From Chitinophagaceae bacterium BSSC1 (GTDB taxonomy: Bacteria > Bacteroidota > Bacteroidia > Chitinophagales > Chitinophagaceae): a stretch of DNA of 64,000 nucleotides. The stretch covers positions 1,488,001-1,552,000 of the forward strand of contig NKJC01000001.1 in assembly GCA_002256435.1 (NCBI GenBank), written 5' to 3'. Below are positions 31,089 to 33,829 of the stretch, piece by piece. A program made the position numbers and the translations under genes. The notes below the pieces were generated by a model. That model had not been told where the DNA came from, did no database searches, and saw only the letters and a list, made by a program, of their open reading frames with translations. Every line of letters begins with the position of its first letter. The first letter of the stretch is position 1.

Positions 31089-32591
31089 TTATGCCACAGT
31101 ATAACTGGTAGCCCCGTCTTTCTCGTCTTTTAATTGCACGCCTAGGGCAGCCAATTCATTTCTGATTTTATCGCTGGTCATAAAGTCCCGTTTGCTCTTA
31201 GCGTCTTTTCTAATGCTGATCAAGAGTTGCAATACCCCGTCTAATTGGGCACCATCACCTTGGCGTTCGCTTATCAATCCAAATACGTCTTCTATATAGA
31301 CTTTCAATTGGGTCTGCAATAATTTCAAAGTATTACTACTAATGGCCGTTTCTGCAATATGCTTGTCTTTGATAGAATTGATAATAGAAACTAGGTCAAA
31401 CATATTGGCCAACACTTTGGCTGTGCTAAAATCATCATCCATAAAGACGTCAAATTCTTGCACAAGTTGCTGTACTTTTTGATCCAATGCCGCGTCAGTT
31501 CCGGTCTGTTCTGCAATGGTATATTTAGCAAACCAATCATGTGCTTCCCACAATCTTTTGAAAGCTTTTTCAGAAGCTTGTAATGCTTCATTGCTAAAGT
31601 CTAGCGTTCCGCGATAATGACTTTGCAGAATAAAGAATCTCACCGTCATGGGTGAATAAGCCTGGGTTAAAACAGGGCTGCTGCCACTAAATAATTCAGT
31701 GAGCTTGACAACATTGTTATAACTCTTCCCCATTTTTCTGCCCTCAATGGTGATCATATTATTGTGCAACCAATAACGCGCAGGTGTTTTGTGATTGCAA
31801 ACCGTGCTCTGTGCAATCTCACATTCATGGTGCGGAAACTGTAAGTCCATACCACCACCGTGAATGTCAAATTCCTGACCCAAATATTTACTACTCATGG
31901 CCGAGCACTCAATATGCCAACCCGGGAAACCCTCTCCCCATGGGCTTTGCCAGCGCATGATATGTTCTGGCGGGGCCGATTTCCAAAGAGCAAAATCGTT
32001 TCTATTTCTTTTTTCGTCTTGGTTCTCTAGTTCTCTGGTAGTATCTAATTGCTCGTCAATATTTCTACCGCTCAGCATGCCATAAGGCTTACCCTGTTTA
32101 GAAAAATCAGTATTGTATTTTTCAACGTTGAAGTAAACAGAACCATTGGCTTCATATGCATAACCATCTGCGATGATTTTTTTGATCATCTCAATCTGTT
32201 CTACAATATGACCTGTAGCAGTTGGCTCAATACTTGGAGGCAGGTTGTTAAATTGACTCATGGCCCAATGATAGAGATTGGTGTATTTCTGCACCAGCTC
32301 CATGGGTTCTAATTTTTCCAAAATGGCTTTGCTGCTGATCTTGTCTTCAGCGGCTCTTCCTTCTTCCTCAAAATGACCAGCATCAGTGATATTGCGAACA
32401 TAGCGCACTTTATAACCCAAGTGCATCAGGTATCTATAGACAACGTCAAAAGTGATAAAGGGGCGTGCATGACCTAGGTGACTTTCACCACTTACGGTTG
32501 GTCCGCAAACATACATGCCCACATAGGGTGGGTGAATGGGGTTAAAGTCTTCTTTTTGTCTGCTAAGTGAATTATATACTTTGAGTGACAT
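31089..32591 (-). CDS. cysS: Cysteinyl-tRNA synthetase
   Basis: CysS charges tRNA-Cys with cysteine. The 500-residue class I synthetase has the HIGH-type motif in SGESHLGHARPF, zinc ligands in YVCGPTV, GWHIECS and FPHHECEIAQS, and the KMSKS-type motif as KMGKSYNN. The C-terminus holds the anticodon-binding helical domain. It is the last gene of a minus-strand directon that starts with rlmD. Upstream, separated by 60 bases, lies a 14-codon ORF that ends in seven cysteine codons (32652-32696), which strongly suggests regulation by the charging state of the very tRNA this enzyme serves. Confidence 0.96.
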   Translation of the reverse strand: MSLKVYNSLSRQKEDFNPIHPPYVGMYVCGPTVSGESHLGHARPFITFDVVYRYLMHLGYKVRYVRNITDAGHFEEEGRAAEDKISSKAILEKLEPMELVQKYTNLYHWAMSQFNNLPPSIEPTATGHIVEQIEMIKKIIADGYAYEANGSVYFNVEKYNTDFSKQGKPYGMLSGRNIDEQLDTTRELENQDEKRNRNDFALWKSAPPEHIMRWQSPWGEGFPGWHIECSAMSSKYLGQEFDIHGGGMDLQFPHHECEIAQSTVCNHKTPARYWLHNNMITIEGRKMGKSYNNVVKLTELFSGSSPVLTQAYSPMTVRFFILQSHYRGTLDFSNEALQASEKAFKRLWEAHDWFAKYTIAEQTGTDAALDQKVQQLVQEFDVFMDDDFSTAKVLANMFDLVSIINSIKDKHIAETAISSNTLKLLQTQLKVYIEDVFGLISERQGDGAQLDGVLQLLISIRKDAKSKRDFMTSDKIRNELAALGVQLKDEKDGATSYTVA

Positions 32592-32619
32592 GTTTGTTAC
32601 TTGAAAAGATTGGAAAATG

Positions 32620-32671
32620 GTTGGGTTGTCTGCAATAAAATAGGGGCTGAATTAACAGCAGCAACAACAAC
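32620..32671 (-). promoter_or_regulatory. Candidate attenuator hairpin pairing the cysteine codons with a downstream segment
   Basis: On the minus strand the cysteine-codon segment GTTGTTGTTGCTGC (32658-32671) can pair with the later GCAGACAACCCAAC (32620-32633) in three 4-bp blocks (GUUG/CAAC twice, CUGC/GCAG) with small bulges. The loop of 24 bases contains the leader stop codon. The 3' side is followed by CATTTTCC and CTTTTC before the cysS start. A ribosome stalled on the cysteine codons would prevent this pairing. Hand-folded only. Confidence 0.45.
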
Positions 32672-32696
32672 AGCAGGTATGACTCAGAAAAAACAT
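32652..32696 (-). CDS. Cysteine-codon leader peptide upstream of cysS
   Basis: This short minus-strand ORF reads MFFLSHTCCCCCCC and then stops (ATG at 32696-32694, TAA at 32654-32652): 14 codons, the last seven all cysteine, using both TGC and TGT. It lies between the preceding gene's stop at 32717 and the cysS start at 32591. Runs of regulatory codons directly ahead of the gene whose product senses or serves that amino acid are the hallmark of translation-dependent attenuators, as in trp and his leaders, and cysteine-rich leader ORFs are known upstream of sulfur genes in actinobacteria. That it functions this way here is inference, but the placement makes chance unlikely. Confidence 0.75.
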   Translation of the reverse strand: MFFLSHTCCCCCCC

Positions 32697-32716
32697 GGAC
32701 TGCAAGATAAGGTATT

Positions 32717-33829
32717 TTATTTTTTCAGGCGTAGATCTGTCACCAACATCACGTGGTCAGAAAGGTCTTCGTCTACCATATCAAATTGGCGTACAGAGAA
32801 ATGATTGTCTACCAGAATATAGTCAATGCGCAATGTGGGGGCCAGGGAAACAAAGGTTCGGCCAATGCCAAAGTCTTTTTTGAGAAAGGCATCCTGCCAG
32901 TCTCCCTTAATGTTGAAATAGGTATAGGAATTGGGCACGTCATTAAAATCGCCACAGACAATACTAGGAAAGGGACTCTTGTCTCTGGCTTCACGCACCA
33001 GGTCTGACTGAATGCCCCTTCTGGAAAAAGCCAGTTTCATTTTTCTAAAGAGATTCTTTGAGGCACTAACCGTTTCTTCGTCCTGATCTCTGATCTTCTC
33101 AATATCTGCGTAGTCATTTTTCTGAAACTTAAAAGACTGCAAATGGGTGGTATAGACCCTTATAGTGTCATCACCTTTTTTAATATCAGCATGAATCAGG
33201 CTTTCTGCAACAGGATAAGCCACCCTTCCGGTATCAATAATGGGATATTTTGAAAAGATGATACTACCACTCAGGTAATCGCCTTTATTACGCAGATAGT
33301 CTTTTGAAAAATAATGGTAAGGATGTGTTTTGCTAAACAGGGAGATATTGTCTACACTGCTCAAACTGGTATTAAATTCCTGCAGACATATGATATCCGG
33401 TTGGAGTTTTAAGATGCTTTCAGCAACATCAGTTCTAATCAGTCTTCTGGTTTCTTTGTTCTGAGTAAGTCCATTAAAGCTTTGCACATTCCAATCAATC
33501 ACGCGCATGTTGAGCTCGTGTTTTTGCTTAGTGAATCCAGAACCTGCATGCCAGGCAAAGACTACTTCTATTTGTTGCCAACCCAAACAAAGACTTAAAA
33601 AAGGTAACCATGCTAATACCGGTTTTACAATCAACCAGAAAATCATGGCAAAGAATAATAACATTACTAGGTATGGCACTATCAAACCCGTGAAACCATT
33701 CAACCACCAGTTTGCTGGATTTACATAAGGAGATAGGCAAGCTACTAGAAACAAAATGACTAGTAACAAGGTAATAGAAAGACAGAGGGTTTTAAACGCG
33801 CGGCGAAAAACGTTTTTTGCCATGCCCAC
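32717..33829 (-). CDS. Membrane-anchored endonuclease/exonuclease/phosphatase (EEP) family protein
   Basis: This 370-residue protein has three N-terminal hydrophobic helices (about residues 12-35, 45-68 and 70-90) followed by an EEP domain. Catalytic motifs are DWNVQSFNG, DIICLQEF (metal-binding Glu), VCGDFNDVPNSYTY (Asp and Asn), and DEDLSDHVMLVTDL (Asp-His pair). The domain is probably periplasmic or cytoplasmic depending on the number of helices; which substrate (nucleic acid, inositol phosphate, sphingomyelin-like lipid) is used is unknown. It is preceded by a tandem paralogue 13 bases upstream. Its stop is 20 bases before the cysteine leader ORF. Confidence 0.88.
   Translation of the reverse strand: MGMAKNVFRRAFKTLCLSITLLLVILFLVACLSPYVNPANWWLNGFTGLIVPYLVMLLFFAMIFWLIVKPVLAWLPFLSLCLGWQQIEVVFAWHAGSGFTKQKHELNMRVIDWNVQSFNGLTQNKETRRLIRTDVAESILKLQPDIICLQEFNTSLSSVDNISLFSKTHPYHYFSKDYLRNKGDYLSGSIIFSKYPIIDTGRVAYPVAESLIHADIKKGDDTIRVYTTHLQSFKFQKNDYADIEKIRDQDEETVSASKNLFRKMKLAFSRRGIQSDLVREARDKSPFPSIVCGDFNDVPNSYTYFNIKGDWQDAFLKKDFGIGRTFVSLAPTLRIDYILVDNHFSVRQFDMVDEDLSDHVMLVTDLRLKK

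Follow-up and report, generated by a model that had tools for sequence, protein, structure and literature searches.

Attenuators of the trp and his type carry, in a leader, codons for the amino acid with which the downstream genes are concerned. For the polycysteine leaders of mycobacteria, a mechanism in which the start of the downstream gene is hidden was reportedly described by Canestrari et al. in 2020 (Mol Microbiol 114:93-108), who are said to have used the word "ribulon". Leaderless cysteine-rich leaders have been proposed in mycobacteria (Shell et al. 2015, PMC4633059), and papers that cite the 2020 study call ORFs of this type, in which Cys codons are contiguous, attenuators that depend on cysteine (PMC9031893; also PMC13236596 and PMC9094748). 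In Actinobacteria, Cys leader peptides precede the cys operons and cbs, and dependence on Rho has been suggested for them (BMC Microbiol 2005, PMC1262725). In Rhodobacterales, the uORFC-8-2 motif lies upstream of cysS and was proposed to be a Cys-tRNA sensor with a terminator (PMC8632094). For Flavobacterium psychrophilum, structured leaders before synthetase genes and signs of leader peptides before amino acid operons have been reported, and cysS does not appear in the parts of that paper's main text cited here (PMC9723704). An earlier note on the DNA studied here had held that a cysteine leader on a tRNA synthetase gene was unreported in Bacteroidota. Among the matches listed in our search of the open-access literature, which covered main texts and a minority of the subscription papers, there was no report of a Cys leader in this phylum that would contradict it. 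However, a Cys leader on cysS is not new to bacteria, since one has already been published for Rhodobacterales (PMC8632094).

The locus that we analyzed lies in a stretch of 64,000 nucleotides from Chitinophagaceae bacterium BSSC1, which is called the window throughout. Its features are as follows.

31089-32591, minus strand: cysS, cysteinyl-tRNA synthetase, 500 amino acids (TIGR00435 score, 445 bits; cut-off, 340)
32592-32651, minus strand: spacer of 60 nt from the leader stop to cysS, without a U-tract (sequence)
32620-32633, minus strand: GCAGACAACCCAAC, the pairing segment of the earlier note (sequence and the window's minimum-energy fold; distal pairing at chance level in relatives)
32646-32659, minus strand: H1, a hairpin over the stop codon in the predicted fold, with GCUG (32659-32656), loop UUAAUU and CAGC (32649-32646)
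32652-32696, minus strand: leader ORF MFFLSHTCCCCCCC followed by a stop (read from the sequence; Cys-run leaders also precede cysS in relatives)
32655-32675, minus strand: seven tandem Cys codons, TGC TGT TGT TGT TGC TGC TGT, the proposed sensor (from the sequence)
32702-32709, minus strand: predicted -7 promoter box TATCTTGC, ending 5 nt before the leader ATG (sequence)
32717-33829, minus strand: upstream neighbor, an endonuclease/exonuclease/phosphatase family protein, with its stop 7 nt before the promoter box

The leader reads ATG (32696) TTT TTT CTG AGT CAT ACC, encoding MFFLSHT, and then seven TGY codons and TAA (32654-32652). Thus, the coordinates and reading frame of this seven-Cys ORF, 60 nt 5' of cysS, are as the earlier note had described them, and so is the position of GCAGACAACCCAAC (32633-32620). 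The stretch that follows GCAGACAACCCAAC, which that note called T-rich, is loosely so, but it holds no U-tract. The codons of the leader match the amino acid of the gene downstream, Cys codons on cysS, which is the feature shared with the trp and his attenuators. The coding sequence of cysS also holds a small terminator-like hairpin, about 60 nt from its start (window 32532-32518, minus strand).

We searched the 4.34-Mb genome for five TGY codons with TAA or TGA directly after them and found two sites, while the backward control pattern gave none. Both sites are leader ORFs; one is the cysS leader, and the other precedes the genes for a TonB-dependent receptor and for a CysG-TauE fusion. Within the window, a search over 14 residue types (C, H, W, F, Y, M, N, D, R, I, V, K, T, and Q, with A, E, G, L, P, and S left out) showed the Cys leader to be the sole ATG ORF of 7 to 40 codons that ends in at least four identical residues. 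The Cys-run ORF before cysS is not due to chance. None of the 4227 Rfam families searched had a match at gathering score in the window, and no leader of the run type was found before hisS, pheS, or trpS of the source genome.

A lack of the Cys run upstream of cysS in close relatives would speak against such a leader, as the earlier note itself had pointed out. We found that close relatives do carry the run, and all four loci whose CysS is 95 to 96% identical have a Cys leader. We scored as a leader any ATG ORF of 5 to 45 codons within 250 nt of cysS with at least three Cys among its last eight codons, and loci ending in only two Cys, such as L099 (MKYDIFYYCCS), were scored as leader negative. 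Same-genus loci had a Cys leader in 9 of 30 cases (the 30 best loci from 59 same-genus genomes with a match; 0 on the reverse complement), named Chitinophagaceae loci in 38 of 80 (the best 80 of 559 loci; reverse complement, 0), and a Chitinophagaceae survey of about one locus per genus in 21 of 86 (reverse complement, 1). There is overlap among these sets, and the same-genus and named sets consist of the best-scoring loci. In other families of the same order, none of 38 cysS loci had a Cys leader (reverse complement, 0), and across the wider class and phylum there was a leader at 1 of 26 (reverse complement, 0). The 26 are the loci outside the family in a phylum survey in which 30 of 60 genomes had loci; one of them belongs to the same order and is also counted among the 38, and several cysS starts in this survey are not ATG, which makes positions there approximate. 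A genome pattern gave matches in 198 genomes, and of these we read 30 loci. Four of the 30 carry either a longer ORF or a short ATG leader that the run closes and that precedes cysS, cysH, or the start of some other gene nearby; those on cysteine genes are L195 and L197 before cysS and L198 before cysH, and the remainder of the 30 are not leaders.

A cut at 80% identity reduced 69 leaders to 45, one of which is from another family. The longest Cys run in the 45 has 2 to 7 codons (median, 4) and closes the ORF, and in 39 of them the stop codon directly follows the last Cys codon. The peptides are otherwise divergent and are alike mainly at their ends (MKQKYLSCCCCCC, MSYTPIYSCCCCCC, MKRFLQYCCCCC, MKHLHLYCCYCCC, and MRFYHLYCCCC). 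Spacers to cysS range from 51 to 114 nt, with a median of 70. Under the same leader criterion, Leu-rich tails occurred at 10, 20, and 9 loci of the same-genus, named, and survey sets, compared with 9, 38, and 21 for Cys, and we take these Leu-rich ORFs for other frames of CTG/TTG repeats. No other residue formed such tails at more than four loci in these sets. The recurrence of the run upstream of cysS in relatives supports a Cys leader peptide on this gene.

The distribution of the leader is patchy. On an unrooted CysS tree of 115 rows with many weak branches, leader presence requires 14 changes, compared with 37 in shuffles, and many of the 14 are plausibly losses. The CysS proteins of L005, where the leader is absent, and L043, where it is present, are almost identical. 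Because the leader is missing from 65 of the 86 family-survey loci and from all 38 loci of the other families, it is dispensable. In a second family of this class, a different and strongly conserved leader, M[IT][KR]FKK...TIICC, precedes cysS in 12 of 30 loci (L312, L386-L388, L397-L401, L404, L407, and L410), with 0 of 30 in the control; this set holds the 30 best of 60 genomes, with loci most like the family's first example. Thus, it seems that several lines of the class have either gained cysS Cys leaders or kept them.

In the transcript map of F. psychrophilum, boxes of the forms TAnnTTTG and TAnnTTGY occupy -12 to -5 (PMC9723704). With this flavobacterial spacing, TATCTTGC would place the start of transcription at about 32697, the base just ahead of the leader ATG. 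Among the 45 leaders, a box lies 4 to 7 nt before the in-frame ATG in 37 and within 16 nt in 40, and 5 have no box; letter-shuffled upstream stretches had a box in 1.3 of 45 on average. Since a Bacteroidota -7 box stands 4 to 7 nt upstream of the ATG in so many of them, we predict a leaderless or almost leaderless ORF, whose start codon would coincide with the 5' end of the RNA or lie close to it. At leader-negative loci, the cysS ATG itself is 5 to 7 nt behind the box in 30 of 79 and at 14 nt in 19 of 79. Thus, many of the relatives have leader and spacer placed between one promoter and cysS. In the source genome, the ATG of pheS and that of trpS (L417 and L418) also lie 4 nt behind a TATCTTCG box, and synthetase mRNAs of the leaderless kind may therefore be no rarity there.

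According to one proposal, translation is raised by short leader genes close to start codons, for which Bacteroidetes show a peak (PMC4833913), and leader translation might likewise do nothing but feed ribosomes to cysS by re-initiation, with the Cys codons incidental and no sensing. However, the published peak is at 11 to 14 bp (PMC4833913), compared with spacers of 51 to 114 nt here, and re-initiation leaves the terminal Cys cluster on the cysS and cysH leaders unexplained. We give this explanation very little weight. The TTG/CTG repeats could instead be a DNA signal or promoter that can be read as Cys codons by accident. A second TAnnTTTG box does occur in the leader-cysS spacer of 11 of the 45 (L274, L277, L279, L286, L290, L337, L356, L381, L072, L352, and L357), compared with 1.6 in letter shuffles, and eight of these boxes are 9 to 13 nt behind the leader stop. 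Such a box may mark a second promoter that bypasses the leader, and in some lineages the upstream part of this promoter may overlap the Cys run. However, the second box is missing from 34 of the 45, the window included. Moreover, the run is in frame with the ATG in all 45, although in-frame ORFs were what we selected for, and it is directly followed by the stop in the 39 leaders mentioned above. An accidental reading of a DNA signal is thus highly improbable. In our judgment, the ORF most likely encodes a leader peptide that senses cysteine and thereby determines how much cysteinyl-tRNA synthetase is made.

The earlier note had the Cys run pairing with GCAGACAACCCAAC. This pairing is present in the minimum-energy fold of the window, but it does not hold up in relatives. 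Duplex energies between the Cys run and the spacer gave Stouffer values of -1.97, -1.35, -1.05, -0.41, and 0.03 for the 45 cysS leaders at offsets of 0, 8, 12, 18, and 25, with the spacer beyond +18 no better than shuffles, and values of -2.45, -1.31, -1.18, and -0.91 for the cysH leaders at offsets of 0, 8, 12, and 18. Thus, with growing offset the energies fall to chance in both groups, which leaves no distal pairing partner for the Cys run. As a whole, the 138-nt leader RNA of the window is no stabler than its shuffles (z, 0.11).

The H1 region, which runs from the last Cys codons through the stop to nucleotide 12 of the spacer, is stabler than its counterparts with shuffled spacer sequence (Stouffer, -7.8; n = 45). 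Taken one by one, 8 of the 45 leaders reach P < 0.05, and the P value of the window's own is 0.16. For the 14 spacers below 60% identity, with L312 left out, 0 of 400 shuffled sets were as low, and the same was true of the H1 equivalent in 21 cysH leaders; at the far end of the spacer, used as a control, 259 of 400 were as low. The commonest registers pair -8 to -4 with +2 to +6 or lie one base further out, and 42% and 44% of leaders form at least four of the five pairs in them, compared with a median over registers of 9%; registers shifted by three reach 38 to 40% because the Cys run is periodic. Examples of the stem are GUUGC-UAAU-GCAAC (L097), GUUGC-UAAG-GCAAC (L290), and GCUGU-UAAU-ACAGC (L076). 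When native leader and spacer pairs were compared with swapped ones over five downstream lengths, P values were 0.08, 0.07, 0.17, 0.34, and 0.13. Since P was 0.07 at best, covariation in H1 is only suggestive, and we claim its stability alone.

We then considered how the leader might act on cysS. Classical attenuation, in which a stalled ribosome lets an antiterminator block an intrinsic terminator before cysS, is the layout proposed for Rhodobacterales cysS (PMC8632094), and the spacer from +7 to +50 is stabler than letter shuffles (Stouffer, -3.8). Loose terminator-like matches were found in 14 of the 45 leaders, a figure that comes without a null. However, they start at many scattered places, with stems of 5 to 7 pairs and broken T stretches, and the distal pairing proposed in the earlier note is at chance level. 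A terminator scan of 32500 to 32900 found no site between the window's leader and cysS, and its two matches are inside cysS and inside the upstream gene. We therefore rejected a conserved intrinsic terminator, and classical attenuation of this kind is unlikely. In translational attenuation, by comparison, the start of cysS would be buried in the fold of the free leader RNA and become accessible once a ribosome stalls. This is in keeping with the predicted layout, which is as in the mycobacterial polycysteine ORFs, and RNA structure is described as tuning translation initiation in F. johnsoniae (PMC6847099). However, the predicted unpaired probability from -25 to +15 of cysS was 0.595 for free RNA; a ribosome placed on the first Cys codon gave 0.610, and one placed on the stop gave 0.617. 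Comparing stalling with stopping, openness rose by more than 0.1 in 0 of the 45 leaders and fell by more than 0.1 in 1. Moreover, the start region of cysS has less structure than its letter-shuffled versions (Stouffer, +5.3). With predicted openness nearly equal in the free, stalled, and stopped states, a start-hiding switch was rejected, and translational attenuation is equally doubtful.

The earlier note had inferred that stalling at the Cys codons prevents a hairpin and thereby acts as a switch; this part of it gained no support, as we found neither a terminator nor a start-hiding fold for stalling to undo. That neither was found leaves control of transcription or of RNA survival without an intrinsic terminator, in line with the suggestion made for the actinobacterial cys leaders (PMC1262725). 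The spacers of the 45 leaders contain 12.8% G and 23.5% C, a composition that is at most compatible with Rho-dependent termination. A readout that needs no terminator, through termination of the Rho type or through RNA survival, is our tentative suggestion for the output step.

A cysteine-sensing leader peptide at this locus could work in the following way. From the geometry of the promoter, transcription would start 0 to 3 nt before the leader AUG, and a ribosome would load once the RNA emerges. With ample Cys-tRNA, this ribosome would pass the terminal Cys codons, reach the stop, and depart; with scarce Cys-tRNA, it would wait at the head of the Cys run. The identity of the target gene and the mycobacterial experiments of others suggest that a waiting ribosome would lead to more cysS output, which would restore Cys-tRNA. 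The parked ribosome may shield the young transcript from termination of the Rho type or from decay in the spacer of 50 to 80 nt. H1 would be melted by a ribosome at the stop and, if the run is long, could stay intact with a ribosome held upstream, so that it may mark the state of the leader.

The other Cys leaders of the genome point in the same direction. The cysH-cysD-cysN genes of the source genome, which were confirmed by family models, are preceded by the Cys leader MKRIFTFIPMPFCCKCSCCS and its stop. Among cysH loci of the family, 21 of 30 have a leader with at least three Cys in the last nine codons and within 300 nt, and the reverse complement has 1 of 30; this set holds the 30 best of 52 cysH genomes among 78. 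The second leader with seven Cys, MKPNFLPKTFCINSHCSLHCCCCCCC and its stop, stands in the source genome before a TonB-dependent receptor, behind which a CysG N-terminal (siroheme-synthase) domain is fused to a TauE/SafE permease (L171:12467-14014, minus strand). Because leaders precede both cysH-cysD-cysN and the TonB-receptor/CysG-TauE pair as well, a small ribosome-directed cysteine regulon is probable. The sequence GTAGACT or its complement AGTCTAC was also observed near the cysH Cys leaders, at 13 of the 21 loci. Upstream of the source genome's own cysH (L384, C3:246500-252500, minus strand), it is present in both orientations, and GTAGACT also occurs before the leader of the TonB receptor (L152). 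This motif is a candidate operator of a sulfur regulator.

With the mycobacterial polycysteine ORFs, these leaders share a terminal Cys cluster, cysteine and sulfur targets, and their presence several times per genome, and they are predicted to resemble them also in having the start codon at the 5' end of the RNA or close to it. They differ in belonging to another phylum, one that is described as being without Shine-Dalgarno sequences, in having cysS among their targets, and in having a hairpin over the stop codon and no predicted hiding of the start by the spacer. Like uORFC-8-2, they place Cys codons in a short ORF before cysS. The uORFC-8-2 motif is described as having two tandem Cys codons, usually at positions 14 and 15, two stems, and a 3' U-run, whereas here the run has 2 to 7 codons at the end of a near-leaderless ORF and a conserved terminator is absent. 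With the actinobacterial cys and cbs leaders, they have in common Cys runs near the stop and the lack of a conserved terminator hairpin, as far as the cited account describes them; those leaders are in another phylum and precede biosynthesis operons, not cysS. Unlike the trp and his attenuators, these leaders gave no terminator/antiterminator pair in our analysis. The full picture, in which Chitinophagaceae have evolved, independently of actinobacteria, a leaderless or short-leader polycysteine regulon (cysS, cysH-cysD-cysN, and the TonB-receptor/CysG-TauE pair) that is read out by a stop-codon hairpin without a terminator or start hiding, in a phylum without Shine-Dalgarno sequences, falls a little short of an even chance in our judgment.

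Strains with and without the leader would be natural pairs for a direct test. If our reading is true, leaderless polycysteine leaders may have arisen more than once. It would also mean that in this phylum, where we found little on regulation by leader peptides, an essential tRNA synthetase is under a cysteine control that is sensed by the ribosome.
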